From a virus, in the IMG/VR virus record IMGVR_UViG_3300035695_000229, positions 1-42,717 of that record: 42,717 nt of DNA; one strand, 5' to 3'. Each line of letters starts with the position of its first letter. The stretch's first letter is position 1. The notes under the pieces were generated by a model, which searched no databases, was not told the origin of the DNA, and was given only the letters and a program-made list of their open reading frames with translations. The translations under genes were made by a program, and so were the position numbers. Of this stretch, positions 1,590 through 42,717 are shown piece after piece.

Positions 1590-1642
1590 GGCTTCAAAAA
1601 GGCTTCAAAAAGGCTTCAAATAGGGTTCTTGCGGCTTCAAAT
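1590..1642 (+). repeat. Four GGCTTCAAA iterons, 11-bp phased (left array)
   Basis: CTTCAAA occurs at 1592-1598, 1603-1609, 1614-1620 and 1635-1641, each preceded by GG. Start-to-start spacings are 11, 11 and 21 bp. The same phased motif occurs near the centre (21032, 21043) and near the right end (42435, 42446, 42457) of the prophage. Confidence 0.85.
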
Positions 1643-4115: not shown

Positions 4116-4463
4116 TTGAACCCCTATTCCGCCCATGATCGCCTTGAAGCGCAGACAGCTGCCTGCTTTGCCGCCGTGCAGAGCGAATTCCGCTGGCTGC
4201 CGCTGCGCGAGATCATCCAGCCGGCGCATCGCCAGTTCGACGCACTCCTGGCGCGGCAAGTCGCCCTCCACCTGATGGTGCATCACTTCGATATCCCGAA
4301 ACGCCGCGTCGTCGAGCTGCATGAACGCTCCCGCGAGGCCGTCAACCGGGCGCTTCGCAATATCGATCTCCGCCTGAACCAGTCGCTGTTTGCCGATGCC
4401 TATCAGCGGATGACCGCCGAGGCGCGCGAACTTTATTCCATCCAACTCTCCGAGGCCGCATGA
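4116..4463 (+). CDS. Small HTH protein resembling the DnaA C-terminal domain
   Basis: This 115-aa protein starts at TTG 4116, with GAGGGTGG (from 4103) upstream. Its middle part (ARQVALHLMVHHFDIPKRRVVELHERSREAVNRALRNID) follows the pattern of the DnaA C-terminal helix-turn-helix, where ARQ..., a turn and a conserved R...V..A...I pattern bind DnaA boxes. No ATPase domain is present. It ends in an ATGA overlap with the ParB-like gene, so the two are translated together. The frame just upstream ends in a 25-residue hydrophobic stretch (from DYIPIVLFCLAAVV) whose stop overlaps this TTG. No ATG, GTG or TTG start is visible near that peptide. The DnaA link is inferred from pattern only. Confidence 0.7.
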   Translation: MNPYSAHDRLEAQTAACFAAVQSEFRWLPLREIIQPAHRQFDALLARQVALHLMVHHFDIPKRRVVELHERSREAVNRALRNIDLRLNQSLFADAYQRMTAEARELYSIQLSEAA

Positions 4464-5275
4464 CCCAGTTTGAAATCATTTCCACCAAAGACATTTTCGT
4501 GCCGGAGCGTTTGCGCGCGGTTGAGGAAGATCATGCCCTGGCGATCGCACAGTCGATCGTCGAGCATGGCTTGATCAATCCTATTTCGGTGCGGCGCACG
4601 CCCGCGCAGAAGGGCGGTAAGTTCACCTTGGTGGCTGGGGCGCATCGGCTTCGGGCCTATGAACTCAATGATGAGAGCGAGATCGAGGCGCTGATTTTCG
4701 CGGCCGACCAGGCCGAAGGCCAGCTGATCGAAATCACCGAGAACCTGTTTCGCAACGACCTTTCGGTGATCGACCGGGCGATTTTCGTCCAGAGCTATCG
4801 CGAGATTTGGGAGCAGAAGAACGGCAAGATCGCTCCTGGCAGGCCGGGAAATAGCGCCAACTTGTCGCAAATATTTGCCGACGAGGTCGAAACAGGCGGG
4901 TTTTCCGAACATGTCGCCGATCGAATGGGGCTTTCAAAGCGATCAATTGAGCGCCTCAACAAGATTGCGCAAGGCGTGACGCCTGAACTACGCAATAGCC
5001 TGCGCGGCACGGCCTATGCCGACAATCAATCCACCCTTCTGAAGCTCGCCCGGCTTGAACGCGACAAGCAGCGCGATTTCGCGGTTGGCTTCACTAAGAG
5101 CGGCGATTTCGACCTGACGATGCGCGTCGTCGAGAACAAATCCAAAGTCAAGCCAGACGCCCAGCTCGTGCTGTACGGCCGGCTGCTCGACACATGGCGG
5201 CGGTCTTCCCACGAGACCAAGGTGAAGTTCGCCGCGTTTGCGAACGATTTCCTCGCCCGTGGGGATGCGGAATGA
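4460..5275 (+). CDS. ParB-like (ParB/Sulfiredoxin N-domain) protein
   Basis: The N-terminal 100 residues carry the ParB fold pattern: HALAIAQSIVEHGLINPISVRR, then LVAGAHRLRAYELN in place of the usual GERR/GHRR motif, then ENLFRNDLS. A central HTH-like region follows (FSEHVADRMGLSKRSIERLNKIAQ, about residues 150-175). Chromosomal ParB proteins use this domain to bind CTP and spread on DNA; many phage proteins with the domain have unknown roles. At 271 aa it is close to normal ParB length. It lies between the DnaA-like gene and the genes leading to MuA, with ATGA overlaps at both ends, so it may act in early phage DNA handling or transcription. Confidence 0.85.
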   Translation: MTQFEIISTKDIFVPERLRAVEEDHALAIAQSIVEHGLINPISVRRTPAQKGGKFTLVAGAHRLRAYELNDESEIEALIFAADQAEGQLIEITENLFRNDLSVIDRAIFVQSYREIWEQKNGKIAPGRPGNSANLSQIFADEVETGGFSEHVADRMGLSKRSIERLNKIAQGVTPELRNSLRGTAYADNQSTLLKLARLERDKQRDFAVGFTKSGDFDLTMRVVENKSKVKPDAQLVLYGRLLDTWRRSSHETKVKFAAFANDFLARGDAE

Positions 5276-5878: not shown

Positions 5879-6106
5879 ATGGCGAAGATTTCCATCATCG
5901 GTCAGATCGGCGAAGTCGAACGTGAAATCGCGATGCGCGAGCGGGTCTATCCGCAGCTCGTCGCCGCCTCGAAAATGAAATCCCCAGAGGCAGATATGCT
6001 GATGGAGCGCATGCGAGCGGTGCTCGCCACGCTGCGCTTCGTGCAGACATACGAGAAGGATTTCCGCGAATATTACGCCGCCGTCCACGGCAAGGAGCCA
6101 CAATGA
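5879..6106 (+). CDS. Hypothetical early protein, 75 aa
   Basis: This is a helical, charged protein (IGEVEREIAMRERVYPQLVAA...MLMERMRAVLATLRFVQTYEKDFREYYAA). Small proteins of this kind often precede the transposase in alphaproteobacterial Mu-like phages. Its stop overlaps the MuA start by 4 nt (ATGA), implying translational coupling. It has no recognisable catalytic motif. Confidence 0.7.
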   Translation: MAKISIIGQIGEVEREIAMRERVYPQLVAASKMKSPEADMLMERMRAVLATLRFVQTYEKDFREYYAAVHGKEPQ

Positions 6107-8031
6107 AAGAGTGGTTCACCATTGCCGAACTGGAAGCCCTGGCACTGCCCGACATGCCGGCTTCGCATCGAGCGCTGGCCTATGAGGCCGACAGCTGGCG
6201 CAGCCGTGGCCTCGCCCGCAAGCGGGCTGGCAAAGGTGGCGGCTGGGAATATAGCCTGACAGCCCTGCCATCCGCCGCACAGATCCGGCTCACCATGATG
6301 GCGCGGGCCGCCAATGGCGAGGCCGATGAAAAGGCCCGCCAGAAAAAGGAATTGTGGGCGCGCTATGAAGGCCTTTCCGCCGCGCATAAAGCCAGCTGTG
6401 AAGCCCGTTTGAAGGCGGTTTTAGACGTCCTTGATCTGGAAGCGCACGGCGTCAACACGACGACGGCGACACAAATTGCCGCTGGACGCCACGCGGTCAG
6501 CCCGGCCACGCTCTACAATTGGCGCGCCGACACGCAGTTGCACGACCGCACGGATTGGCTCGCGGCCCTCGCGCCGGCCTTTACCGCGACCGCCAAGCGA
6601 TCGGATTGCGATCCACGCGCCTGGGACTTTCTCGTTTCCGACTATCTCCGGGCCGAGGAACCGCGCTTTACCAGCTGCTATCGCCGCATGGAGCTGGCCG
6701 CCAAGAAGCAGGGCTGGTCGCCGATCCCATCCGAGCGTTCTCTGCGCCGCCGCCTGGATGCGGAGATCCCGGACGCGGTACAGACCATGGCCCGTAAGGG
6801 GCAGGATACCGCCAAGAAGCTTTACCCCGCCCAGCGCCGCGACCGGACCACATTGCGCGCCATGCAGGCCGTCAATATGGATGGCCACAAGCTCGATGTG
6901 TTCGTCAAGGTGCCGTGGTCGGACAAGCCGGTGCGGCTCTATCTGATCGGCATTCAGGATCTCTATTCCGGCAAGATGCTGTCCTGGCGGCTCGCGGAAG
7001 CCGAAACATGGGAAGCTGTGCAGCTGGCGGTCGGCGACATGGTCGAAACCTACGGCATTCCGGAAGAATTCGTGCTCGACAATGGCCGGGCCTTTGCCTC
7101 GAAAAAGATCACCGGCCGCAGCCGCACCCGCTTCCGCTTCAAGATCCGAGAAGACGATCCGGAAGGGCTGATCACGGCGCTTGGCTGCAATCTGCATTGG
7201 ACGCAGCCTTATTCCGGCCAGTCCAAACCGATCGAGCGGACCTGGAAAGACATCACCGAGGAGATCTCGCGCCATCCCGCTATGTCTGGCGCTTACACCG
7301 GCAACAAGCCGGACGCCAAGCCGGAAAATTACGGCACGCGGGCGATACCGCTCGCCGCCATGCATGCCCATGTCGCCGAGCAGATCGCGCTCAACAATGC
7401 ACGAACAGGCCGTAAGGCGGCTGTCTGCGCCGGCCGCAGTTTCGATGAGACGTTTAACGCCTCACTCGCCGATCCCGCCACCATCGTGACACGCGCCAGC
7501 GCGGCCCAACGGGCGCTATGGCTGCTCGCTTCGGAAGGGGTCCGCGCGCAAAAAGGTTCGGGCGAAATCCACTTCCAGGGCAACCGCTACTGGAATGGCG
7601 CGCTCGGCGCCCATTCCGGCCAGAAGGTCACGCTGCGGTTTGATCCCGACAATCTGCACAATCCGGTCAAGGTCTATGATCTCCAGGGCCGGCTGATCTG
7701 CGACGCTGAGTGCATCGACGATACCGGCTTCTTCGACCAGGATTCGGCGCGGCTCCATGAGCGGAACCGGAGCACGCACAAGAAGGGCGTCAAGATGCAG
7801 GAGACTGCCCTGAAGGTGCACTCCGCCCAGGCGCTCGCCGATATCCTTGCCCGTGGCGAGCGGGCCGAAAACCCCGAACCGCCGAAACCAGCCGTCACCC
7901 GGCTTGTCACGGGCCGTAGAACAGCGGTGGCGGTGAAGCCCGAGATGGCCCCGGAAGAAAACAGAACTATCGACTTTGAAGCCAATTTCGCCCGCGCCAT
8001 GAAACTGATCAGAGGCGGGTTGGAAGACTGA
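6103..8031 (+). CDS. A: Mu-type transposase A (DDE integrase fold)
   Basis: This 642-aa protein carries out strand transfer during integration and replicative transposition. The N-terminus (WFTIAELEALALPDMPASHRALAYEA...GWEYSLTALP) is the Mu-type winged HTH that in Mu binds the enhancer, followed by an end-binding HTH region (about 100-235). The catalytic core holds Asp260 (NMDGHKLD), Asp326 (FVLDNGRAF) and Glu378 (SKPIERTW), with spacing close to that of MuA (269/336/392). The Mu C-terminal beta-barrel and basic tail follow (VTLRFDPDNLHNPVKVYDLQGRLICDAECI matches the Mu pattern). All key residues are present. It is co-transcribed with upstream early genes. The next gene, B, lies beyond a hairpin-rich 116-bp gap. 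Confidence 0.97.
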   Translation: MKEWFTIAELEALALPDMPASHRALAYEADSWRSRGLARKRAGKGGGWEYSLTALPSAAQIRLTMMARAANGEADEKARQKKELWARYEGLSAAHKASCEARLKAVLDVLDLEAHGVNTTTATQIAAGRHAVSPATLYNWRADTQLHDRTDWLAALAPAFTATAKRSDCDPRAWDFLVSDYLRAEEPRFTSCYRRMELAAKKQGWSPIPSERSLRRRLDAEIPDAVQTMARKGQDTAKKLYPAQRRDRTTLRAMQAVNMDGHKLDVFVKVPWSDKPVRLYLIGIQDLYSGKMLSWRLAEAETWEAVQLAVGDMVETYGIPEEFVLDNGRAFASKKITGRSRTRFRFKIREDDPEGLITALGCNLHWTQPYSGQSKPIERTWKDITEEISRHPAMSGAYTGNKPDAKPENYGTRAIPLAAMHAHVAEQIALNNARTGRKAAVCAGRSFDETFNASLADPATIVTRASAAQRALWLLASEGVRAQKGSGEIHFQGNRYWNGALGAHSGQKVTLRFDPDNLHNPVKVYDLQGRLICDAECIDDTGFFDQDSARLHERNRSTHKKGVKMQETALKVHSAQALADILARGERAENPEPPKPAVTRLVTGRRTAVAVKPEMAPEENRTIDFEANFARAMKLIRGGLED

Positions 8032-8147: not shown

Positions 8148-9179
8148 ATGAACGTAAACGCAAGCATAAAACAGACAGACGACAACGCCTGGGCACCGCC
8201 CACGACCAGGCCGCAGGTTGCCGCAAACCGCAGCCAGGAAGATATCGACCTCTGGAGCCAGTTGACCGGCCGCGTGATGGAAATTGCCATTGAGAGCGGC
8301 TGGAACAAGGCCGAAGTCGCGCGCCGGACAGGCATGCCTTCGGGCAGTTTCTCCGCATGGTTTTCGGGCAATATCGGCGAAGGCCGGCTCGACAACAACA
8401 ATTCTAAAATTCAGAAGTTTGTCGAGCAGATCGAGGAACAGGCTGGCGCCATCGCGAGTATTCCTCAATCTCCGGCCTTTTTCCAAACGCGCACCTCCAA
8501 GGAGATCGTGAAGGCGCTGGACTGGGCACAGGGCGCGGGTGATCTGGTGATCATCACGATCGGTGCGGGCATGGGCAAGACCGCCACCTGCACCCAATAT
8601 CGCAATCGCCGCCCGAATGTGTTCATGGCGACAAGCTCGCCAAGCACGAAAACCGTCCACGGCATGCTGCACGATCTCGCCGCCGAAATGGGCGTGTCGG
8701 AACATAATCCGGCCAAATATGTCCGGGCGATCGGTAACCGGCTGGCCCAATCCGGCAACAGTCTGCTGATCATCGACGAAGCGCAGCACCTGGTGGACGA
8801 TGCCATCAACCAGCTCCGGCATTTTGTCGATTGTTACAAATGTGGCGTAGCCCTGGTCGGCAACAACGAAATCTATGACCGGCTGAAAGCCCGCAACAAC
8901 GGACCATCTTACGCCCAGCTCAAGCGGCGGATCGGCACTCGGCTCGATCGCGCAAAACCCTATGCCGAAGACATCAAGGCGGCGATATCAGCGTGGAACG
9001 TGACCGAGGATTCCAGCGTCAAGCTGCTCACCGGTATTGCGCTCAAGGGCGGCGCGTTGGGGCAGGTCGACAAGACCATGAAGCTTGCGACCATGCTGGC
9101 GATCGGCGCCGGTGAAGCGCCGACCTATGCCTTTATCAAGGCCGCCTGGGAAAACCGCAATGTGGAGGATTTTTCATGA
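8148..9179 (+). CDS. B: MuB-like AAA+ ATPase, target DNA activator
   Basis: This protein binds ATP and target DNA, delivers targets to the transposase and gives target immunity. An N-terminal HTH (WNKAEVARRTGMPSGSFSAWFSG, about residues 48-70) is followed by an AAA+ domain. That domain has Walker A GAGMGKT (139-145, Lys144), Walker B LLIIDEAQ (Asp210, Glu211) and a probable sensor I (ALVGNNEIYDR). At 343 aa it is slightly longer than Mu B because of its N-terminal tail. Its stop overlaps the next ATG (ATGA). Gene order A-B is diagnostic of a Mu-type transposable phage. Confidence 0.96.
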   Translation: MNVNASIKQTDDNAWAPPTTRPQVAANRSQEDIDLWSQLTGRVMEIAIESGWNKAEVARRTGMPSGSFSAWFSGNIGEGRLDNNNSKIQKFVEQIEEQAGAIASIPQSPAFFQTRTSKEIVKALDWAQGAGDLVIITIGAGMGKTATCTQYRNRRPNVFMATSSPSTKTVHGMLHDLAAEMGVSEHNPAKYVRAIGNRLAQSGNSLLIIDEAQHLVDDAINQLRHFVDCYKCGVALVGNNEIYDRLKARNNGPSYAQLKRRIGTRLDRAKPYAEDIKAAISAWNVTEDSSVKLLTGIALKGGALGQVDKTMKLATMLAIGAGEAPTYAFIKAAWENRNVEDFS

Positions 9180-13151: not shown

Positions 13152-13571
13152 ATGGTTGCCTATTCCTTCAAACGTTATTTCTCGCCGCAGATCGCCACTG
13201 GCGTGAAGCTGCAGACCGTGCGCGCCGATCGCGCCCGCCATGCAAGGCCGGGCGAGATGATCCAGCTCTATGAAGGCATGCGGACGCGGCACTGCCTGAA
13301 GATCCGGCCGGATGTCGTGTGCGCCTCGGTCGAACCGATCAGGATCTACGTTGATTTTTACAATCTGGTGATCGGCCTTGGTGACAAATGGCTCTCGGAG
13401 AAAGAGATCGAATGCTTCGCCAGGGCGGATGGGTTCGATCCGGAGCATATCAACCGGATCGCCATCGATATGGACGGCAAGACGGCGATGAAAAACATGC
13501 ATCAGTTTTGGCTAGAAAACCACGGCCTCGGGCTTTGCCGCGCCGTGCTGATCAAATGGAAGGTGGCGTGA
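13152..13571 (+). CDS. ASCH-like phage protein, 139 aa
   Basis: The N-terminal half follows the pattern of ASCH-type domains: YSFKRYFSPQIATGVKLQTVRADRARHARPGEMIQLYEGMRTRHCLKI, where the G-K-x-x-T-x-R motif and the GD/GE-x-x-Q strand are typical. ASCH proteins are RNA- or nucleotide-binding, and some act on modified bases. The second half (WLSEKEIECFARADGF...AMKNMHQFWLENHGL) is helical. I choose ATG 13152 over GTG 13149. Similar proteins occur in other phage early regions. The specific role is inferred only from the fold pattern. Confidence 0.65.
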   Translation: MVAYSFKRYFSPQIATGVKLQTVRADRARHARPGEMIQLYEGMRTRHCLKIRPDVVCASVEPIRIYVDFYNLVIGLGDKWLSEKEIECFARADGFDPEHINRIAIDMDGKTAMKNMHQFWLENHGLGLCRAVLIKWKVA

Positions 13572-17738: not shown

Positions 17739-19363
17739 GCGAGGCGGAACCAATCCCCAGGGAGCCGGACAGGCTACCACCGGAGTTTTCGCGCGGCGGC
17801 GATATCCCCGACGATCTCGACCCGCTGGCCGAAGGCGTGTTGATGCGCCATCAGGCCGAATGGCTGGAGGATCAATCGGATCTAAAAATCTGCGCCAAGG
17901 GACGGCGGACCGGCATCACGTTTGCCGAAGCGCTCGACGACACGCTGATCGCGGCCGCCAAGCGCTCGGCAGGCGGACAGAACGTCTTCTATATCGGCGA
18001 CACCAAGGACAAGGGCCGCGAGTTCATCGGCTACGTAAAACACTTCGCCTACACGGTCGCCAAGGAAATCGCCGAGATCGAGGATTCGCTGTTCATCGAC
18101 GAACGCGCCGATGGCACAACGGCTTTCATTTCAGGCTACCGGATTTCGTTTGCCTCGGGCTTCCGCGTCGAGGCGCTATCGTCCAGGCCGGAAAACATTC
18201 GCGGCCTGCAGGGCACAGTGGTGATCGACGAAGCGGCGTTCCACAAGAGCGTCCGCGACGTGCTCGATGCGGTCAACGCGCTGCTCATCTGGGGCGGCAA
18301 GATCAGGGTGATCTCCTCGCATAACGGCATCCTCAATCCGTTCAACGAACTGATAAGGGAAGCCGAGGCCGGCAAGGTGCCGTTCTCAATTCATACCATT
18401 CCATTCAAGCTGGCGATCGACAACGGCTTGTTCAAGCGCGTCTGCTTGACGACGGGAAAGACCTGGTCGCCGGCAACTGAGGCAGACTGGGAAGCCAAGA
18501 TCCGAGCCTCCTATGGATCCCGCACCGCCAAAATGAAACAGGAGCTGGATGCGATTCCCGCCGAGACCGAGGGCGCAGCACTCACCCGCGTCATCATCGA
18601 GAGCTGCATGTCGGCTGACATCCCCGTGGTGCGCTGGGATCGCGATGACGATTTCAAGAATCTCACTGATGAAGAGCGCCGCCGGCAGGCTTTGCAATTC
18701 TGCGAACGCGATCTGAAGCCGCTTTTAAAGCGCCTTAATCCGGCCCGCGAACATGCTTTTGGCGAAGACTTCGCCCGCAAGGGCGACAAGACCGCGATCA
18801 TCCCGCTGGAGATCGGCACCGATCTGGTACGCCGCGCCAGCTTTGTCCTGGAACTGAAGAACATAACCTTCGACGAACAGCGCGACATTCTGTTCTACAT
18901 CGTTGACCGGCTTCCACGGCTGGTCGGAGGGGCGCTCGATGCCACGGGCAACGGCTCCTATCTCGCCGAAAAGGCCGCGCAGAAATATGGCGAATGCATC
19001 GTCGAGGTGATGATGACCGCCACGTGGTACAAGACCAATATGCCGGCCTATATCGAGGCGTTTGGCGACAAGAGCATTTTGTTGCCGAAAGACGCCGATG
19101 TGCTCGCCGATCACCAGGCGCTTGCTTATGTCGGCGGCATCATCAAGGTGCCGGACAATCATTCGACCAAGGGCGTCGACGGCTATGATCGCCACGGCGA
19201 TACCGCGCCGGCCGGGGCGCTCGCCTGGTTTGCCAGCCATCAGGATTTCATCGCCTACGCCTATGAAACCGACCGCAAGCCGGCGGTGGGCAGCGCACAA
19301 CATACCTATCCCGAAGACGAGGACAGCAGGACACTCGATGTCCGCCTGAGAGGATCATTGTAA
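17735..19363 (+). CDS. Large terminase subunit (Mu gp28)
   Basis: This packaging motor ATPase and nuclease starts at GTG 17735. The ATPase domain has a Walker A-like ICAKGRRTGIT (about residues 52-62) and Walker B TVVIDEAAF (161-169, Asp165/Glu166), followed by a VISSHNG motif III. The RNase H-like nuclease domain has its first Asp in HAFGEDFARKGDKTAI and a later DATGNGSYLAE with the second Asp. Mu-type headful packaging takes host DNA with the prophage ends. The length of 542 aa is normal. The stop TAA overlaps the portal ATG. Confidence 0.95.
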   Translation: MSEAEPIPREPDRLPPEFSRGGDIPDDLDPLAEGVLMRHQAEWLEDQSDLKICAKGRRTGITFAEALDDTLIAAAKRSAGGQNVFYIGDTKDKGREFIGYVKHFAYTVAKEIAEIEDSLFIDERADGTTAFISGYRISFASGFRVEALSSRPENIRGLQGTVVIDEAAFHKSVRDVLDAVNALLIWGGKIRVISSHNGILNPFNELIREAEAGKVPFSIHTIPFKLAIDNGLFKRVCLTTGKTWSPATEADWEAKIRASYGSRTAKMKQELDAIPAETEGAALTRVIIESCMSADIPVVRWDRDDDFKNLTDEERRRQALQFCERDLKPLLKRLNPAREHAFGEDFARKGDKTAIIPLEIGTDLVRRASFVLELKNITFDEQRDILFYIVDRLPRLVGGALDATGNGSYLAEKAAQKYGECIVEVMMTATWYKTNMPAYIEAFGDKSILLPKDADVLADHQALAYVGGIIKVPDNHSTKGVDGYDRHGDTAPAGALAWFASHQDFIAYAYETDRKPAVGSAQHTYPEDEDSRTLDVRLRGSL

Positions 19364-20943
19364 TGACAACTTTCCGCGATTGGTTGGGCAGGGTCATTGC
19401 CGGCAGGGATCTGTTCAGCGATATCGCCGGGGCACGCGTCGGCGGCATGCGGAGCTGGTGGTCTGACCATCCGGCAGATGGGCTGACGCCGAGAAAGCTT
19501 GCGGCCATTCACCTTGCCGCCGCCCAGGGCAGCCCGCTTGCCTATCTCGAACTCGCTGAGGATATCGAAGAACGTGATTTGCATTATGCCGGCATCATGG
19601 CAACCCGCAAACGTTCCGTCGCGCAATTGCCGATCACGGTGGTTGCTGCTTCCGATGACGCAGACCACAAGAAACATGCGGAGCTGGTTCAGTCCTGGCT
19701 TGATGAAGGCGTTCTGCAGGCAGCCTTATTCGACATGCTGGATGCGATCGGCAAAGGCTTTTCAGTGCTCGAGACAGATTGGCAGACCAATGCCTGGGGC
19801 AACACGCTGCCGCGCGAACTGATCTACCGGACGCCGCGCTGGTTCACCTTCGACCTCACCGATGGCGAAACCGTGTTGCTCCGCGAGGGTGTGGCCAATG
19901 AGCCATTGGCGGCCCATAAATTTGTCGTCCACCGCCACAAATCCAAATCCGGCCTGACGATCCGTTCCGGCATTGCCCGGATGGCATCCTGGTCATGGAT
20001 GTTCAAATCGTTCACGGTCCGCGACTGGGCGATCTTTGCCCAGAATTTTGGCCAGCCGATCCGCGTCGGCAAATATGGACGCGGCGCGACCGAGGCCGAA
20101 AAGGATGTGTTGTGGCGGGCGGTCTCCGGCATTGCCGGCGATTGCGCAGCGATCATCCCGCGGGAAATGTTGATCGAGTTCCAGGAAGTGGCGAGCAAAG
20201 GATCATCCACAGATCTGTTCGAACGCCGCGCCGACTGGCTCGATCGTCAGATGTCCAAGGTGGTGCTTGGCCAGACTGCGACGACAGATGCGATTGCCGG
20301 CGGTCATGCTGTCGGCAAGACCCATCGTCTCGTCCAGGAAGATATTGAGCGCTCGGACGCCATGGCCGCCTCGGCGACCATCAACATCCAGCTTATTCCC
20401 AACATCGTTGCCTTCAATTTCGGACCGCAGGACCGTTATCCGAAGGTCCATATCGGCCGGCCGGACGAAGTGCCACTTTCGGAATTTTCCACGGCCTTCA
20501 ATGATCTCGGCCCGCTCGGCCTGACTGCCGGCATCTCCTACATCCGCAATCGCTTCGGCATCCCCGCGCCCGCAAAGGGCGAGGAGTTGGTGGGCGGCCG
20601 GGCGGCGATCGCAACGCCCGTCACGCCGCCTGTCATTCCAACAAAGCCAGCCAGGCAAACCACGCAGCATCTATTTGCGGCGAGGCATTCCGTCGCCCAG
20701 GACGCCTTGACCGAGAAGCTGCTCGCCCGGATCAGCGAGGAATCAGACGGCGCGATGTCCGGCCTGGTGGAGGACGTGCGCAAAGCCTTGATGGAGGCCA
20801 CTGATCTCAGGGACGCCGCAGCCCGGTTGGCGCAGCTCGATCTCAGCGCTGATCAGCTGACCGAGGCGATGGCGCGGGGCATGGCCCTGGCGCATCTGGC
20901 CGGGCAAGCCGCCCTCATCGACGACCTCAATAGCCGGTCATGA
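19363..20943 (+). CDS. Portal protein (DUF935, Mu gp29)
   Basis: This forms the ring at the head vertex through which DNA enters. The DUF935 pattern is clear: RKLAAIHLAAAQGSPLAYLELAEDIEERDLHYAGIMATRKRSVAQLPI, then GFSVLETDWQ, DWAIFAQNFGQPIRVGKYG and KVVLGQTATTDAIAGGHAVGKTHRLVQEDIERSDA. The 526-aa length fits. The gene is followed by a 130-bp gap that interrupts the otherwise overlapping late genes. Confidence 0.95.
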   Translation: MTTFRDWLGRVIAGRDLFSDIAGARVGGMRSWWSDHPADGLTPRKLAAIHLAAAQGSPLAYLELAEDIEERDLHYAGIMATRKRSVAQLPITVVAASDDADHKKHAELVQSWLDEGVLQAALFDMLDAIGKGFSVLETDWQTNAWGNTLPRELIYRTPRWFTFDLTDGETVLLREGVANEPLAAHKFVVHRHKSKSGLTIRSGIARMASWSWMFKSFTVRDWAIFAQNFGQPIRVGKYGRGATEAEKDVLWRAVSGIAGDCAAIIPREMLIEFQEVASKGSSTDLFERRADWLDRQMSKVVLGQTATTDAIAGGHAVGKTHRLVQEDIERSDAMAASATINIQLIPNIVAFNFGPQDRYPKVHIGRPDEVPLSEFSTAFNDLGPLGLTAGISYIRNRFGIPAPAKGEELVGGRAAIATPVTPPVIPTKPARQTTQHLFAARHSVAQDALTEKLLARISEESDGAMSGLVEDVRKALMEATDLRDAAARLAQLDLSADQLTEAMARGMALAHLAGQAALIDDLNSRS

Positions 20944-21073
20944 AAACGGGGCAAAGAATAGCCCCTTGGGCGCGTTCGTCAGGGTCGAATAGCCGGATGC
21001 CCGGCCCAAACCCTAAAAACGCGTCCAGGGGCTTCAAATGCACTTCAAATTTTGATCGAAGGGGCAATGGAGG
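20944..21073. other. Gap between portal and gp30 with hairpin and paired CTTCAAA iterons
   Basis: This is one of the longer gaps in the structural region and lies near the middle of the prophage. It contains a small hairpin (GGGGC 20948-20952, GCCCC 20961-20965) and two CTTCAAA copies 11 bp apart (21032-21038 and 21043-21049), the same phased motif as at both ends. In Mu a strong gyrase site is located near the centre of the genome; an analogous role here is a hypothesis. Confidence 0.55.
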
Positions 21074-22156
21074 ATGGTGACGACGGCAAGCGCGCTCGAT
21101 CTGCCCTTTACCGAGGCGATCGACTTCCTCAAGCAAAAGACCGCCACCCCGACCAAAAGCTGGCGTGATGTCTGGGATGCGGCGCATTCGAAAATGTTCA
21201 TGGTGGCTGGCGCCAACAAACAGGCGATCGTGGAAGACTTCCAGGCGGCAATCGTCAAGGCGATCGAGACCGGCACGACGCTGGCAGAGTTCCAGAAGGA
21301 TTTCGACAAAATCGTCAAGACCAATGGTTGGTCGTACAAGGGCGATCGCGGCTGGCGGACCAAGACGATCTTTGAAACCAACATGCGCACCGCCTATGCC
21401 GCCGGCCGCTATGCCCAGGCAACCGACCCGGATGTGCTCGCGGCCTTTCCCTACTGGCAATATAATCATTCCGGCGCGACCCATCCACGCGTCCAGCATC
21501 TGGCCTGGAACGGCACGGTGCTGGCGGCCGACGATCCGTTCTGGAATGAGGCCTACCCGCCCAATGGTTTCGGCTGCGGCTGCTTTGTCACCTCGGTGTC
21601 GCGCGGCGGCTTGAAACGCCAGGGCAAGGCTGGTCCGGATCGCTCGCCCAATCTCGACCAGGTCGGAACCGATCAGCCGCTCGGCATCGATCCATCCTTC
21701 GCCTATAACCCGGGCAAGGCGTGGTTGACGCAAACCGCGCCCGGGCCAAAGGTGGTGACCGCCAGTCAGGCAATGGTGGCGGCGTTTGCAAAATCATCCC
21801 TCCGGGGCAAATGGCCGGATGGCAGCTGGACGCCGGTGGGCGCGGTCGACAAAACCATGGCCGGGACGCTCGATGTCAAGGCAGCCACCGAAATCCGGCT
21901 GCCGGCGGAGACGATCCGCAGTCTGGGCGAGACGATCAGCCTGGAGACGCTCGCCAATCTGCCAAGCTGGTTGAGCAAGTCGGGCCGCATCAAGGTCGAC
22001 AGCCAAGGCAATATTGTCATTGTCGGCACGCTGGACGGCAAGACCTATTGTGCGACGATCCGGATCGAGCGGCAGAAAGACCGATCGTCGGTCACGGTCA
22101 CGGATCTGAAGCCAATCACCGCGCGGCAGGCGGCAGCGCTGAAGGACCTCCAATGA
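21074..22156 (+). CDS. Minor head/morphogenesis protein (SPP1 gp7-like; Mu gp30/F)
   Basis: The first 210 residues follow the phage head morphogenesis domain: LPFTEAIDFLKQKTATPTKSWRDVWDAAHSKMFMVAG..., FETNMRTAYAAGRYAQ and the conserved WQYNHSGATHPRVQHLAWNGTVLAADDPFWNEAYPPNGFGCGC. The protein is probably ejected or placed near the portal. The last 90 or so residues (LPAETIRSLGETISLETLANLPSWLSKSGRIKV... then GKTYCATIRIERQKDRSSVTVTDL) resemble the PBECR-type (barnase/EndoU/ColE5-like) domains found at the C-terminus of some phage head proteins. That second assignment is tentative. Confidence 0.88.
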   Translation: MVTTASALDLPFTEAIDFLKQKTATPTKSWRDVWDAAHSKMFMVAGANKQAIVEDFQAAIVKAIETGTTLAEFQKDFDKIVKTNGWSYKGDRGWRTKTIFETNMRTAYAAGRYAQATDPDVLAAFPYWQYNHSGATHPRVQHLAWNGTVLAADDPFWNEAYPPNGFGCGCFVTSVSRGGLKRQGKAGPDRSPNLDQVGTDQPLGIDPSFAYNPGKAWLTQTAPGPKVVTASQAMVAAFAKSSLRGKWPDGSWTPVGAVDKTMAGTLDVKAATEIRLPAETIRSLGETISLETLANLPSWLSKSGRIKVDSQGNIVIVGTLDGKTYCATIRIERQKDRSSVTVTDLKPITARQAAALKDLQ

Positions 22157-26335: not shown

Positions 26336-26910
26336 TGGATCTTTCCTCCGCCCCGATCCGCGTCATGGAACCGGCGATCAAAGCCCGGCTGCGGCTGGCG
26401 TTTCCGGAAAAAGATTTCACCATCGAGCGCATTCCTCAGACGCTGACCATCAAGGAATTCGAGCGGCTGTCGCGGCTATCGCCTTTCATCGGGCTCGCCT
26501 GGGCGGGTTTCAAGCCGGATGGCGCCAATGAGCGGATCACCAAGGGCGACATGCTGTGGCGGCTGGTGCTGGTTTACAAGGCTTCAAACGGCCTTGAAGC
26601 CCGCTTCAAGGGCGACAGATTGGGCCTTGGTCTTGATGCCATGGTCGATGTCAGCATTGTACTACTCAACGGCGCGGGCTTCCCCGGCATCGGCAAAAGC
26701 CAGGTGACGCTTGCCAATTCGGTGATCGCCGATGGCTGGTCGGACGATTCGATCGTGATCGCCCAGGTGGATTTTACCGTGTCATTCACGGCGACACCGG
26801 CGAATTTCAGCCTCAAGACCGCAGAAGATTTCCAGAAGCTCGGCATCACCTGGATCGTCGATCCGGAGGATGAAGCCGCGCCTGACGTCACCGACGAATT
26901 AGAACCTTGA
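26335..26910 (+). CDS. DUF1834 protein, tail terminator-like (Mu gp37)
   Basis: I start at ATG 26335; GTG 26332 is an alternative overlapping the upstream stop (GTGA). The pattern PIRVMEPAIKARLRLAFPEKDFTIERIP...VLVYKASNGLEARF...GLDAMVDVSIVLLNGAGFPGIGKSQV...FTVSFTATPANF matches Mu gp37. By position it is the tail-completion or terminator protein. Confidence 0.87.
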   Translation: MDLSSAPIRVMEPAIKARLRLAFPEKDFTIERIPQTLTIKEFERLSRLSPFIGLAWAGFKPDGANERITKGDMLWRLVLVYKASNGLEARFKGDRLGLGLDAMVDVSIVLLNGAGFPGIGKSQVTLANSVIADGWSDDSIVIAQVDFTVSFTATPANFSLKTAEDFQKLGITWIVDPEDEAAPDVTDELEP

Positions 26911-32192: not shown

Positions 32193-33442
32193 TGTGGTTT
32201 GACAGCGACGGCGATCTTTTGCCCGGCCTGTTGCCCGGGCTCTATCGCGGCATCAGTTTCTTCTGTCCCGACACCTCGACCAAGGCAGGCCGCCGGGTGG
32301 CCGAGACGCTGTTTCCCGGCGTTGAATGGGCGGCCTATGACGATATGGGTTATCTGCCCGATACCGTCGATATTTCGGCGCTGGTGATCAGCGACGACTA
32401 TATTGCCATCGCTCAGCAGATCCGGAGCGCCTTCAAGACGCCGGGGCCCGCAACGCTGATCCACCCGTGGCTCGGGCCCATGACGGTGATCCTGCAGGAT
32501 CCCGGTGAGATATCCTTTGCGGCGGCCGAGCTGCGGGTGGTGCGGTTTACCGCGACGTTCAAGGTGCAGGCCGAGGGCGCGGGCTTCGGCTTTGGCGCAT
32601 CGACGCTCACCGGCCTGGTGCTCGGCATTGCCGATGTGGTGACCACGGCGAGCGCCCTGGTTTCCGCCGTCGATGACACGGTGATATCAACCGTCAAGGC
32701 CAAGGCGTCGACCAGATCCGGACGGATTGTCATCGCCGCCGCCGACGATGTTGCCGCGCCCGCCGGCTCGCTGCGTTTCGTGCCGCGCCTCAAAGCCTCG
32801 CTGCCGGCACGGGTGGACAGCCCTTCTGCCTATGACGCCATGATGATTGATATTGCTGGGCGGATCTCGGCGCGCGATCGCGTTCCGGCCGTTGCGCCGG
32901 CAGCCTCGGCGGTGATCGAAGCCAAGCCCACGCCCTCCGCCCTGGTGACGGTTGGCCTCGATCTCGCAACCGCTCTGGTCGCAGCGATATCAGACGCGCC
33001 ATCGAGCGCCGATGCCGCCTTGATTGCATCAGGCGCGGCGCACCTGGTCGCAAGCCTCGCCACCCAGGCGCTCGATGTCGATTACGATTCGCGAAACGCC
33101 GCGATCGCCTATCGGACTTCGGCATCCACAGCGATCGGCGATCTGATGGACGCGATGACGGCGATCTCATCCGATCTGATGGTGGCCGAGGCCGGCGCAA
33201 TGCGCCGCGCACTGCGGGCGCTGCAGACCGCCATCATCAAGGACGTCAACGAGACGATCGGCCGCCTGCCGCGTGTCGTCACCTTTTCGCCCGGCCAGCC
33301 GATCGACGCCTTTTTGCTGGCCACCCATGTCGCCGGCAACCAGCCCGACAAGATCGAGGCGGTCTATCGCGATATTGTCGCCCGCAACCGGCCGCGCCAT
33401 CCCGCCCAGATCGATAGCGATGCGATCGAGGTCAAACTATGA
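32189..33442 (+). CDS. N: Tail/DNA circularisation protein (Mu gpN)
   Basis: The open frame starts upstream, but I choose ATG 32189 (ATGA overlap) or the adjacent ATG 32192, with GGGAG just before. The N-terminal part (GLYRGISFFCPDTSTKAGRRVAETLFPGVEWAAYDDMGYLPDTVDISALVISDDY...HPWLGPMTVILQDPGEISFAAAELRVVRFTATF) matches the DNA_circ_N domain of Mu gpN, a baseplate/tail hub component. The remainder is Ala-rich and helical. Confidence 0.92.
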   Translation: MMWFDSDGDLLPGLLPGLYRGISFFCPDTSTKAGRRVAETLFPGVEWAAYDDMGYLPDTVDISALVISDDYIAIAQQIRSAFKTPGPATLIHPWLGPMTVILQDPGEISFAAAELRVVRFTATFKVQAEGAGFGFGASTLTGLVLGIADVVTTASALVSAVDDTVISTVKAKASTRSGRIVIAAADDVAAPAGSLRFVPRLKASLPARVDSPSAYDAMMIDIAGRISARDRVPAVAPAASAVIEAKPTPSALVTVGLDLATALVAAISDAPSSADAALIASGAAHLVASLATQALDVDYDSRNAAIAYRTSASTAIGDLMDAMTAISSDLMVAEAGAMRRALRALQTAIIKDVNETIGRLPRVVTFSPGQPIDAFLLATHVAGNQPDKIEAVYRDIVARNRPRHPAQIDSDAIEVKL

Positions 33443-35203: not shown

Positions 35204-35665
35204 ATGTTTTACGATCTCGCCCTTGTCTATGACCCGGATGCGCGCGCTTGCGATCTAGCGATCGGCGACGATGGCGATCTGATGATCGATGAGACCGCGA
35301 TCACCCCTATGCTGCTCTCGATCGGGCTGGACCGCCGGGCAGCCAATGACGACGAATTGCCTGACGGACGCACCCAATATCTCGCGCCTGTTTCCTTCTC
35401 CGAACGGCGGGGCGGCCCGGGCGATGCGCTCGATCCCTTCGGTGCAATGACCGGCTCCAGGCTCTGGCTCGCCAACCGCGCCAAGCAAACAGAGACCACA
35501 AGACAGCTCTTCGCCTTCTGGCTGGCCGAATGCCTCACCTGGGCGAAAGCCGAAACGGGTGTGGCCGCCGAGATCGAGGTCGAATGGCGCGCCGCCGGAC
35601 TGCTGGCCTTCCGCTGCATGGTATCAGACGCGACGATCGCGCTTTCCAAACGCGTGGAGGGCTGA
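35204..35665 (+). CDS. Baseplate protein (Mu gp46)
   Basis: This 153-aa protein follows the GP46 family pattern: DLALVYDPDARACDLAIGDDGDLMIDETAITPMLLSIGLDRRAANDDELPDG, then RRGGPGDALDPFGAMTGSRLWLANRAKQTETTRQLFAFWLAECLTWAKAETGVAAEIEVEW. It connects the hub and wedge. No clear ribosome-binding site precedes the ATG, only GTGCGGCC. Confidence 0.92.
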   Translation: MFYDLALVYDPDARACDLAIGDDGDLMIDETAITPMLLSIGLDRRAANDDELPDGRTQYLAPVSFSERRGGPGDALDPFGAMTGSRLWLANRAKQTETTRQLFAFWLAECLTWAKAETGVAAEIEVEWRAAGLLAFRCMVSDATIALSKRVEG

Positions 35666-39302: not shown

Positions 39303-41296
39303 TGGATCATCTGCCTAGTGTTTTCACCGGAGGCAATCTCCGCGACAAGATCAATGAAATCATCGATGCGGCGGCGCTCAAGAGCCGGTTGGTGGCATGT
39401 GTGGAAGATTTCGGAATTATCCTATGGACGTCTTTTGACGCGGTCACAGGGTATCCGACAGGGGTATTTCCCGATCACAGCCCAGCGTATCAGGCACTTG
39501 CCACCGCTCTCGGGGGTGTTGGTGGCGGGGTCATCACGTGCAGAACAACAGGCGCGATTATTTTTGGTTCGTCCATCGTTTCGCCTATGGGCGTGCATCA
39601 TCGCTTCAGTAATCGGAAGCGGCCATTTGTCAGCGTTGGTGTTTATGATTGGGCGGGAACCGTTAGGCTTATACCCAGCGCAACCGGTGTTTTCAAGAAA
39701 TCCGATGGCACAAATCAGTCCGTTGCTGTCGATGGTCACTGTCGTGATGCCTTCCTGTTTTGGGGAAATATCGACCCAGCTGACCCCACGAACTACTTGA
39801 ATGCAGGCGGCATACCCGACATCGGCGTGGGAAGCATAAAAGACATCAATGTCTTTGGATCTCCGGTCAACGGGATTGGTATCGCTATCGTAGCGGGTGC
39901 TTATGTGTGTGAAGACTGGCGGGGGGATATGATCTCCTGCGCTGTGCGGCGGCAATTCGGTGGAAACTTCTACACTGATAAATTTTCCGCGCGTCGCTTC
40001 TCATTTCCGGTTCGCGCCGATAATACGACTAGGCTTATTGACGTTCGAGGGCTTGGTGACGGGCTGACCATCGATACGATCGAGTGTGGTGTTTGGAACG
40101 ATGGGACGATCGATCAGCCGGCGGTCGGTATTGAAGCATCTAACACGCGCGCCGGCGTGGTTAGAAACGTCATAAACGGTATCCATACCTTTACGAAGTC
40201 GTGCATTGACATCTCGTCTCTGCACATCGAAAGCGGTCAAGTTATTTTGGATGGTTTTCAAGGCACCGTTCGGGATTCATGGATCTTCAACGACGGGGTA
40301 AGAAACCCGATTTTGGTCAAAAATTCGCAATCCGGCAACGGCGATAGAACGTCATGGTCTTTCGGCGGGCTAAGGTTTGTCGCTCAACCCAATTGGAACG
40401 TCCATGGGGCATCCGGATGGCCAGTAGCTGAGGTAATGGATATCTATCTCGACACTGGTTCCGGCTCTCAAGAAATTATCGATGAGGGAACAAGCCGTCG
40501 TATCGTGGCTGTTAATGGCCAGCTCGACAAGACGACAGTGCTCCATCCTCTGATCGGTGATAGCAACGGCCGATTGGCGGACTTGGCCTCCTACGGGCCA
40601 ATGCTACAGTCCAAGGTATCGCGCATAAATCAAGGCAAGGTGTCGGTCACAGGTGTGGTCGACTCTTCTGGCGTATTCAATGGGATGACGATCGGCACCT
40701 TCACCGCGACAGCCGGCGGGATGTCGTTTAAGGCCGCGACCGCGACATACTATTACCAGGCGCAGCTGGTGTTTGATGTCACGAGGAAGATCGGTCGTGG
40801 AATCACAGGATCTCCGGCGGCTGTTTCAGTGGCGGCAACGAACGGTGCGGCTGTGCTGCCGCAGCTGACGTTCGACCTGTCTGGCATGTCGAGCGAAGGT
40901 GGGTACTTCATCCGCGTTTATCGTGGATCGGCTGATGGCAGCTATGACAAATATGCTGATATCCCGGTTGCCTCTATTAAATATGCTTGGGATGACGGCA
41001 ATTGTATAGCGTCAATCCCATGGAAAACGCGGGCGGCGGGCGTGGCTGACACCCTCAACTCCGGTCTTACCGGCACCGGCTCGCGGCTGGTGCTGGAAGC
41101 TGGGGGCATTGTGGCCAAGGGTGTCGCTTCGAGAACGCCAACAGTGGGTACGTGGAAACAGGGCGATAAGACTGAGTTGCTTGCACAAACTGCCGATGGC
41201 AACAACATGGTGATCGAGGGCGCGACATGCACTGTTGCAGGCACCCCAGGAACCTTTGTTGATCGCAGGTTCTCGACGGTAAGCCCGGCGGTCTGA
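39299..41296 (+). CDS. Tailspike/receptor-binding protein, 665 aa
   Basis: This is a large protein at the end of the tail module. The central part (about residues 130-400) has repeated short beta segments with Gly/Asn/Asp turns (INVFGSPVNGIGIAIVAGAYVCEDW, IDTIECGVWND, VVRNVINGIHTF, LHIESGQVILDGFQGTVRDSWIFNDG), the look of a right-handed beta-helix. The C-terminal third is a separate beta-rich region (GMTIGTFTATAGGMSFKAATATYYYQAQL...). It probably binds or degrades a host surface polysaccharide. The codon use is more A+T-rich than in the baseplate genes, which suggests a recently exchanged module. No catalytic residues could be assigned. Confidence 0.7.
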   Translation: MMDHLPSVFTGGNLRDKINEIIDAAALKSRLVACVEDFGIILWTSFDAVTGYPTGVFPDHSPAYQALATALGGVGGGVITCRTTGAIIFGSSIVSPMGVHHRFSNRKRPFVSVGVYDWAGTVRLIPSATGVFKKSDGTNQSVAVDGHCRDAFLFWGNIDPADPTNYLNAGGIPDIGVGSIKDINVFGSPVNGIGIAIVAGAYVCEDWRGDMISCAVRRQFGGNFYTDKFSARRFSFPVRADNTTRLIDVRGLGDGLTIDTIECGVWNDGTIDQPAVGIEASNTRAGVVRNVINGIHTFTKSCIDISSLHIESGQVILDGFQGTVRDSWIFNDGVRNPILVKNSQSGNGDRTSWSFGGLRFVAQPNWNVHGASGWPVAEVMDIYLDTGSGSQEIIDEGTSRRIVAVNGQLDKTTVLHPLIGDSNGRLADLASYGPMLQSKVSRINQGKVSVTGVVDSSGVFNGMTIGTFTATAGGMSFKAATATYYYQAQLVFDVTRKIGRGITGSPAAVSVAATNGAAVLPQLTFDLSGMSSEGGYFIRVYRGSADGSYDKYADIPVASIKYAWDDGNCIASIPWKTRAAGVADTLNSGLTGTGSRLVLEAGGIVAKGVASRTPTVGTWKQGDKTELLAQTADGNNMVIEGATCTVAGTPGTFVDRRFSTVSPAV

Positions 41297-41622: not shown

Positions 41623-42429
41623 ATGGTGAATCGGAATGAATTTTTGGATGTGCCGCCGGCACAGCCAGTTGCTGCGTGGATGGGCGGCAAAAGGGCACTT
41701 GCACCGCGACTGGTGAAGATGATCGGAGAGACGCCACACCAGGTCTACGCGGAGCCGTTTGTCGGGATGGGAGGGGTATTCTTCCGCCGCCGGCAGGCGG
41801 CCAGGGCGAAGGTCATCAACGACCGCAACGGGGATGTGACAAATCTCTTTCGCATCCTTCAGCGTCACTATCCACAGTTCATGGATACGCTGAAATTCCA
41901 GATCACCTCACGCCGCGAGTTCGATCGGCTGAAGGCATGTGACCCGAAGACGCTCACAGATCTGGAGCGCGCTGCGCGTTTCCTATACCTCCAGCGTCTG
42001 GCGTTTGGCGGCAAGGCGCACGGCCAGAATTTTGGGGTCAGTGCCGATCGGCCGGCGCGCTTTAACCTGACAAAACTGGCTCCACTCCTGGAGGACGCGC
42101 ACGAGCGGCTCTCAGGTGTCACAATCGAGAACCTGGACTGGCTGGAGTTCGTCGACCGCTATGACCGGCCGACAACACTTTTCTACCTCGATCCTCCATA
42201 TTGGGGCTGTGAAGACGACTACGGTAAACTGTTGTTTGACCGCGATCAGTTTACGGTGATCGCAGACCGTCTCGGGCGGATCAAAGGAGCATTCATCCTG
42301 TCGATCAATGATGTGCCGGAGATCCGTGAGTTATTCGGCCATTTCACGCTTGAAGAGGTCGGGCTTCAATACACCGTTGGTGGCGGCTCTGGTTCGGCTG
42401 CGCGTGAGCTAATTATTAGAGGGCCTTGA
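41623..42429 (+). CDS. dam: D12-class DNA adenine N6-methyltransferase
   Basis: This 268-aa enzyme transfers a methyl group from S-adenosylmethionine to adenine in DNA. Motif I is AEPFVGMGG (residues 43-51), motif IV is DPPY (190-193), and AWMGGKRALAPRLVKMIGE near the start is the usual D12 opening. The target site cannot be read from the sequence. It lies where Mu carries mom, the DNA modification gene, so it probably protects phage DNA from restriction. It starts at ATG 41623, with no strong ribosome-binding site, behind a structured leader. Confidence 0.93.
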   Translation: MVNRNEFLDVPPAQPVAAWMGGKRALAPRLVKMIGETPHQVYAEPFVGMGGVFFRRRQAARAKVINDRNGDVTNLFRILQRHYPQFMDTLKFQITSRREFDRLKACDPKTLTDLERAARFLYLQRLAFGGKAHGQNFGVSADRPARFNLTKLAPLLEDAHERLSGVTIENLDWLEFVDRYDRPTTLFYLDPPYWGCEDDYGKLLFDRDQFTVIADRLGRIKGAFILSINDVPEIRELFGHFTLEEVGLQYTVGGGSGSAARELIIRGP

Positions 42430-42476
42430 AGGCCCTTCAAATAGGCTTCAAATAGCCTTCAAAAGCCGTTTGAAGG
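42422..42476. repeat. Right CTTCAAA array with inverted copies
   Basis: CTTCAAA occurs at 42435-42441, 42446-42452 and 42457-42463, with exact 11-bp spacing. Inverted TTGAAGG-type copies flank it at 42427-42432 (overlapping the dam stop) and 42470-42476. The array matches the left array (1590-1642) in sequence and phase and has the same orientation on the plus strand. Confidence 0.8.
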
Positions 42477-42483
42477 ATTCGCA

Positions 42484-42717
42484 ATGGGAAGGCTGAAATA
42501 TCGATGGGCGCGGACGTGGCCGGATAAGAAGAACGATTACGTTGCCGACGACCAGGATCGCATCTTTGGCCGGATCTATCTGCATCCCGACAATGTACGC
42601 TGGCAATGGTTCCTCAACGGCGACGGTCTGCCACAGAGCACAGGGTTCACCGAGTCCAAGGATGCAGCCGCAGCAGCCCTAGAGGCCGCCTATTCGTCCC
42701 TTAAGCCTGAATCGTGA
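42484..42717 (+). CDS. Hypothetical protein, 77 aa, at the right edge
   Basis: ATG 42484 is preceded by GAAGGA about 7 nt upstream. The product (YRWARTWPDKKNDYVADDQDRIFGRIYLHPDNVRWQWFLNG, then a helical AAAAALEAAYSSL) is of unknown family. Trp-rich small proteins of this shape are common in rhizobial genomes and phages. Its stop is the last codon of the window, so I cannot tell whether it is the last phage gene or lies beyond the prophage end. Confidence 0.65.
   Translation: MGRLKYRWARTWPDKKNDYVADDQDRIFGRIYLHPDNVRWQWFLNGDGLPQSTGFTESKDAAAAALEAAYSSLKPES

Follow-up and report, generated by a model that had tools for sequence, protein, structure and literature searches.

The heptamer CTTCAAA recurs in 11-bp phase at three places in a 42,717-base IMG/VR record (the whole stretch of DNA analysed here, referred to as the window), which carries a Mu-like prophage whose host is of Rhizobiales type. 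This raises the question of what one phased repeat could be doing both in the middle and near the two ends of a transposable phage. An earlier note on this DNA proposed that a protein wraps or pairs the three loci, and named the transposase and a ParB-like early protein among the possible binders.

Phased arrays inside the prophage termini

The prophage encodes a MuA-type transposase (6103-8031, + strand; Pfam HTH_Tnp_Mu_2, DDE_2 and Mu-transpos_C) that is 34.7% identical to Mu A and whose relatives, at 41-67% identity, come mostly from Rhizobiaceae and Bartonella. It also encodes a MuB-type target protein (8148-9179, +; PF09077), an S24 repressor, a Ner-like protein and a ParB-like early protein (4460-5275, +; ParB_N). 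The left terminus TGTAGTCTGTCACCGGGT (TGTAGTC...; 1408-1425, +) was placed by comparison with the left ends of relatives, which lie at a similar distance from the MuA gene. From 1408 it reads TGTAGTCTGTCAC, and the same format is present in 31 other left ends, which came from a pattern search of relatives and were then accepted; the records of the Sinorhizobium phages Aussie and StopSmel start with the equivalent bases. The right terminus lies 57 bp past the end of the window and was located through contig L118 rather than in the window's own record. This contig is 100% identical to the final 4,095 bp of the window, its extension reads ...CCCGCTACA at its end, and its right terminus reads ...GGCGACCCGCTACA, followed by TTGAT. 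The same five bases precede the left terminus (1403-1407) as the left copy of a 5-bp target-site duplication. With the termini fixed in this way, the arrays are subterminal, not terminal, and their assignment to the left end, centre and right end of the prophage is borne out by the termini together with the duplication. Just outside the left end, two overlapping ORFs (505-1316) look by eye like a split IS5-type transposase, and positions 1-240 contain a resolvase-like fragment.

All nine CTTCAAA copies first reported in the arrays are present (1592, 1603, 1614 and 1635; 21032 and 21043; 42435, 42446 and 42457). The left array (1592-1641, +), 184-234 bp inside the left end, has TTCAAA at 1593, 1604, 1615 and 1636 and a degenerate TTCTTG at 1626. 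The right array (42426-42474, +), about 300-350 bp inside the right end, has a degenerate TTGAAG at 42426, TTCAAA at 42436, 42447 and 42458, and TTTGAA at 42469, the last belonging to an inverted CTTCAAA copy (42469-42475) in 11-bp phase with the others. The earlier description had overlooked this inverted copy and the degenerate units at 42426 and 1626; with them, the left and right arrays each comprise about five units over about 50 bp. The right array is preceded by a D12-class adenine DNA methylase gene (41623-42429, +; PF02086). Relatives' right arrays are mostly 60-115 bp from the end, and in the window a small ORF between array and right end (region 42480-42717) displaces the array inward relative to them. 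The central element (21013-21062, +), at 0.474 of the length of the window phage, consists of CTAAAA, a GC block CGCGTCCAGGGG (21020-21031), TTCAAA at 21033 and 21044, and ATCGAA near 21056. It lies between a portal-type gene (19363-20943, +; assigned from relatives) and a Mu F-like head gene (21074-22156, +; PF04233).

Counting both strands, the window holds 19 copies of CTTCAAA; its shuffled versions average 4.59 and reach at most 10 in 100 shuffles. The pair CTTCAAA-N4-CTTCAAA has five exact matches, which are restricted to the left, central and right loci (controls, 0), and eight when two mismatches are allowed (0.19 expected). An isolated copy previously listed at 13165 is actually at 13166. 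The weaker relative described inside the gp37 gene exists as CTTCAAA-N4-CTTGAAG at 26582-26599; no exact copy is present at 26604.

Conservation and phage specificity of the phased element

The arrays occur at the same places in related phages, where absence would have counted against the pattern. Their common unit is TTYRAA. Pairs of this unit in 36 phage records (1.44 Mb) peak at lags 11 (47 pairs), 22 (22) and 33 (13), with 0-12 pairs at the other lags from 7 to 39. Host DNA of the same G+C, sampled as twenty 20-kb stretches (400 kb) from three host genomes, has no lag-11 pair among 264 units, versus 47 pairs among the 1,264 units of the phages. Across 32 left ends the units are concentrated 160-240 bp from the end, and 26 of these ends have a phased pair (lag 10-12, matching at 11 or more of the 12 letters, 165-265 bp from the end; shuffle mean 1.9, maximum 6 in 200 rounds), while each of four control segments has one in at most 1 of 32. 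At the right, a phased pair 50-350 bp from the end is found in 9 of 23 ends (shuffle mean 0.91, maximum 3); these are the ends that matched the right-end pattern, namely 12 picked out by eye among 80 methylase loci, those of three named phages, and 8 of 17 genome prophages whose matches scored 3 or better. At the centre, a lag-11 pair follows the portal gene in 31 of 51 loci, where shuffles average 0.22 (maximum 2), and the 20 that miss this criterion include more distant phages as well as several sites with one extra mismatch. The unit, the left and right windows and the left, centre and right classes were chosen after the data had been seen, so that P-values derived from these counts are optimistic; the sets also include close relatives (e.g. 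Aussie, StopSmel, L052 and L055), which are unweighted in all three counts. The 33 lag-11 pairs of 11 genomes taken to be complete comprise 5 left, 9 central, 4 right and 15 elsewhere, compared with 0.22, 2.64 and 0.34 expected by length for the three classes.

The pattern is also rare genome-wide, as the wrapping proposal demanded. Six whole genomes from a single genus, about 29 Mb in all, contain just four matches to its exact 18-base form, and the conserved GC block precedes three of these matches. One is the known centre of prophage G064, and another lies at a G-I gene junction (L400). A third (L399) adjoins Mor- and GemA-like genes rather than a head junction, and the fourth (L397) is a multi-unit array with no phage homologue within 3 kb. 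With one mismatch allowed, the central consensus has two matches in 289 genomes, one of which is again G064; the other (L407) is without phage context and looks like a chance match. Exact CTTCAAA triplets occur in 25 stretches of viral contigs, and by their immediate context two are tied to this phage family, one being the same phage (L101) and one lying in a contig that also yields a MuA and a methylase locus (L107). The signature of the family is therefore the phased TTYRAA unit, not the exact CTTCAAA string. In two prophages (G059 at 40692 and G053b at 32551, prophage coordinates) TTYRAA arrays of three to six units, possibly displaced right arrays, lie some 1.9-2.1 kb short of the right end.

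The central element and the strong gyrase site of Mu

Of known systems, the central strong gyrase site (SGS) of Mu, which the earlier note left out of account, comes nearest to the arrays. The SGS itself is known, and there are reports of gyrase sites in some gammaproteobacterial relatives. How general a central gyrase site is among transposable phages is left unclear in the available text of PMC8705779, and for KS10 a search for one failed, according to the accessible portion of PMC2628397. A literature search, conducted largely outside subscription papers, returned no description of SGS-like sites from phages of alphaproteobacteria and none of the phased motif near the ends of transposable phages.

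Position is the first point of agreement. In seven of eight alphaproteobacterial genomes with both ends known (the window, Aussie, StopSmel, G064, G055, G059 and G062), the centre lies at 0.47-0.53 of the length; the eighth, POA1180, has no strict pair. Central sites share the consensus CGCGYCCAMGGSCTTYRAAN4CTTYRAA, that is, the GC block followed by two units. The consensus rests on 49 sites, which dereplication reduces to 31. The 49 comprise the window, two named phages, 13 genome prophages and 33 portal loci, these last being the ones above the alignment threshold among the 34 passed to alignment from 51. The element lies between the portal and F genes in relatives as it does in the window, and is also present in prophages with only a 26-28% portal match; in Aussie and StopSmel, which have no portal match, it follows the prohead protease, and in L400 it is found between G-like and protease-I-like genes. 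Since the gene contexts differ, what is conserved is the middle of the genome and not one gene junction. The gyrase site of Mu and FluMu is at the G-I gene junction (PMC2628397, as far as its accessible text goes, and the Mu record), an intergenic location shared by L400; the window site is at the portal-F junction instead.

In Mu, the SGS has the sequence TTTTTTAAAACGCGCCACGGGATTTTTAAACCGGTATTTAACGG, and gyrase cuts it at the annotated position 17879/17880. Like the central element, its right arm combines a mid-genome location with AT units near helical phase (TTTAAA at lag 21, then TTTAAC at lag 12), and before these stands a CGCGCCACGGG block similar to the CGCGTCCACGGG block found in the alphaproteobacterial sites. 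It differs in that the window has CTTCAAA units in exact 11-bp phase and repeats the motif near both ends. When 15 representatives of the 49 central sites were aligned to Mu with gaps, the SGS ranked as the second + strand locus and third over both strands (over the two strands, 8 of 3,664 overlapping windows score at least as high), the aligned blocks being AAACGCG-CCACGGG and TTTTTAAAC. The top Mu locus in this alignment falls within gin (35.2 kb), and a left-end pair at 205 comes fourth on the + strand. An ungapped profile of the 49 sites likewise scores highest in gin (35.2 kb; E 0.001), and the 40 matches listed do not include the SGS. Given this ungapped result, common descent of the centre and the Mu SGS is likely rather than proven. 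The gin site (Mu 35235-35251, 1.5 kb from the right end) reads GCTTTAAAGCGCCTTCAAAAAGG; D108 has no strict pair at this position.

Mu and D108 both carry TTCAAA-N5-TTCAAA at 205-222. This left-end pair resembles the left array in its distance from the end and its 11-bp phase, but has two units rather than the four or five found here. It is unannotated in both phages and, to our knowledge, has no assigned function. Pasteurella phage AFS-2018a has TTTAAA-N5-TTTAAA 207 bp into its record (counted from the record start) and another pair at 0.503, and Vibrio phage martha 12B12 has a pair in its central gap. D3112 and Ab30 have no lag-11 pair, and no TTYRAA is present in the insertion-free central segment of Ab30, which has been proposed as its SGS (PMC5977238).

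Published work on gyrase suggests how such an element might act. The right arm of the SGS is essential and carries DNA-bending repeat motifs (PMC10052514), phased bending sites aid wrapping on GyrA (PMC12393610, PMC6379681), and the GyrA C-terminal domain has been proposed to recognise phased sequences in arms of about 47 bp (PMC6379681, PMC12393610), all as given in the accessible parts of these papers. In the same partial text of PMC6379681, the 130-bp motif bound by gyrase in E. coli Topo-Seq has AT/GC arms of about 47 bp, close to the roughly 50 bp of each end array in the window. That motif is degenerate; the window arrays, in contrast, are sequence-specific, and the A/T-versus-G/C periodicity of the centre is ordinary. 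In a Fourier scan at 10.75 bp, the period of the gyrase signature in the literature, the amplitude of the centre is reached by 8.5% of window positions, that of the left array by 0.13% and that of the right array by 0.04%, and peaks in host DNA are equally high. The periodicity test is a weak one, because the Mu SGS is itself not among the eight highest peaks of Mu.

We lean towards an explanation in which all three arrays represent a single phased DNA element, conserved among MuA-class transposable phages, that is equivalent at the centre to the right arm of the SGS and recurs near both ends as the same wrapping element in the service of end pairing. TTYRAA units one helical turn apart would bend easily and so let the DNA wrap on the GyrA C-terminal domain. 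At the centre, gyrase would then pump supercoils from the middle of the prophage; the left and right subterminal arrays would provide two more places of wrapping, at the foot of the supercoiled loop, and all three would jointly help to align and pair the ends ahead of transposase action. The arrays, with their phase, positions, conservation and phage specificity, are observed directly; the parts of the explanation built on them differ in strength. The central element probably functions as an SGS, and a role of the end arrays in the same end-pairing process is somewhat favoured; wrapping of the end arrays by gyrase itself is doubtful. The original idea of wrapping or pairing fits the helical phasing, the phage specificity and the conservation at both ends and in the middle. 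Against our explanation stand the ungapped profile, which does not list the Mu SGS, the ordinary periodicity of the centre, the GC block of the centre, which is more specific than the degenerate motif of gyrase, the lack of lag-11 pairs in D3112 and Ab30, and the uneven occurrence of the pairs (right arrays in 9 of 23 ends, the centre missed in 20 of 51 loci, 15 of 33 pairs outside the three classes).

Mu offers a point of comparison, as pairing of its prophage ends requires the SGS, the L end and MuB, and neither MuA nor R alone (PMC3820752, in the text available from it). The left-end copy at Mu 205-222 is a candidate reason why the Mu prophage domain requires the L end and not MuA. More tentatively still, phages from Mu to those of rhizobia might share an undescribed three-point architecture, with one motif and one protein at left, centre and right. 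If so, this protein would bring the SGS region and the ends together, and the SGS would be special in that its right arm is the central copy of an end-pairing site, not solely through the preference of gyrase. In practical terms, CGCGYCCAMGGSCTTYRAA-N4-CTTYRAA provides a sequence handle for candidate SGSs in alphaproteobacterial phages.

Candidate binders and other roles of the arrays

Among the alternatives, the one that survives best has a sequence-specific protein other than gyrase, from the phage or conserved in the host, tethering left, centre and right, with gyrase as its partner at the centre. It is raised because the periodicity misses the centre and because the conserved letters exceed the specificity of the gyrase motif, TTYRAA plus the GC block being more specific than a W/S periodicity. 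Two observations on Mu would suit it: of the gyrase sites tried, only that of a close relative replaced the Mu SGS (available part of PMC10052514), and the Mu domain requires MuB and the L end, not MuA (PMC3820752, likewise in part). However, no candidate protein was found, ParB being absent from the Mu-type phages with arrays, and D3112-type transposases share Mu A residues 1-84 while D3112 and Ab30 have no arrays. We regard such a protein as unlikely, though less so than the candidates below. Many D3112-type transposases from Pseudomonas have N-termini that match Mu A residues 1-84 (NC_000929) at about 40%, even though the enhancer-binding domain is called so far apparently Mu-specific in the available text of PMC8705779.

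That the arrays are additional MuA binding sites is improbable. The left array does lie just inside the end-proximal region, the transposase consensus annotated in D108 (YMyNwRAARYRCGAAAR) can include TTGAAG, and GCTTCAAAT is present near the right end of Mu. The known MuA sites L1-L3 and R1-R3 are also near the ends, but their sequence differs from that of the arrays. The terminal GACACCGGGTTTTAGAA repeats, which are taken to be the transposase-type sites of the window phage, do not match the CTTCAAA arrays, and in relatives the corresponding repeats are TTTGACAC..CCGGAA. The terminal sequence varies by phage: the window has TTTTAGAA, most phages have CCGGAA, POA1180 has TTTGGCA and others have CTGCAG. 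TTYRAA, in contrast, is unchanged, which argues against the end-binding domain of the transposase first suggested and for a conserved binder. D108 has no annotated transposase site at 205, and we know of no parallel for a transposase site at a genome centre.

Another protein first suggested, the ParB-like early protein, would bind the arrays in a centromere-like complex for partition or bridging, and is disfavoured more strongly. A relative of it is encoded in 37 of 45 portal-bearing records and in nine named transposable phages of alphaproteobacteria (POA1180, StopSmel, Aussie, RcapMu, RcWaterboi, RR1-B, ThpS-P1, PeaS-P1 and RhkS_P1). Yet arrays and protein do not go together: Mu, D108, Vibrio martha 12B12 and Pasteurella AFS-2018a carry arrays without a ParB match, including left-end pairs in Mu, D108 and the Pasteurella phage and central units in Mu and the Pasteurella phage, whereas RR1-B, RcapMu and RcWaterboi have the protein and no TTYRAA pair behind the portal gene. 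Only 25 of 50,697 phage records have a ParB relative, none of them from Escherichia, Vibrio or Pasteurella.

A role as promoter or activator sites for late genes has, if anything, a slightly smaller chance of being correct. The centre is 24-41 bp upstream of a start codon and the right array precedes a small ORF, but no sigma-70-like promoter was found at 20900-21200, gene context and distance vary among phages, and the left array has no close rightward gene downstream. Chance or a by-product of coding, to which other lag-11 pairs in coding DNA (e.g. at 6397 in the MuA gene) might point, is practically dismissed by the shuffles and by host DNA, which shows no equal density in 400 kb.

The left end carries a second array as well. 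After the left terminus, at 1435-1477, (C)CGGGAATWW recurs in 10-12-bp phase; most relatives have this array at 28-70 bp in their left ends, and Mu has a comparable CGGGAT..TGGGATTAG series at 30-80. We presume that this array may be a packaging signal.
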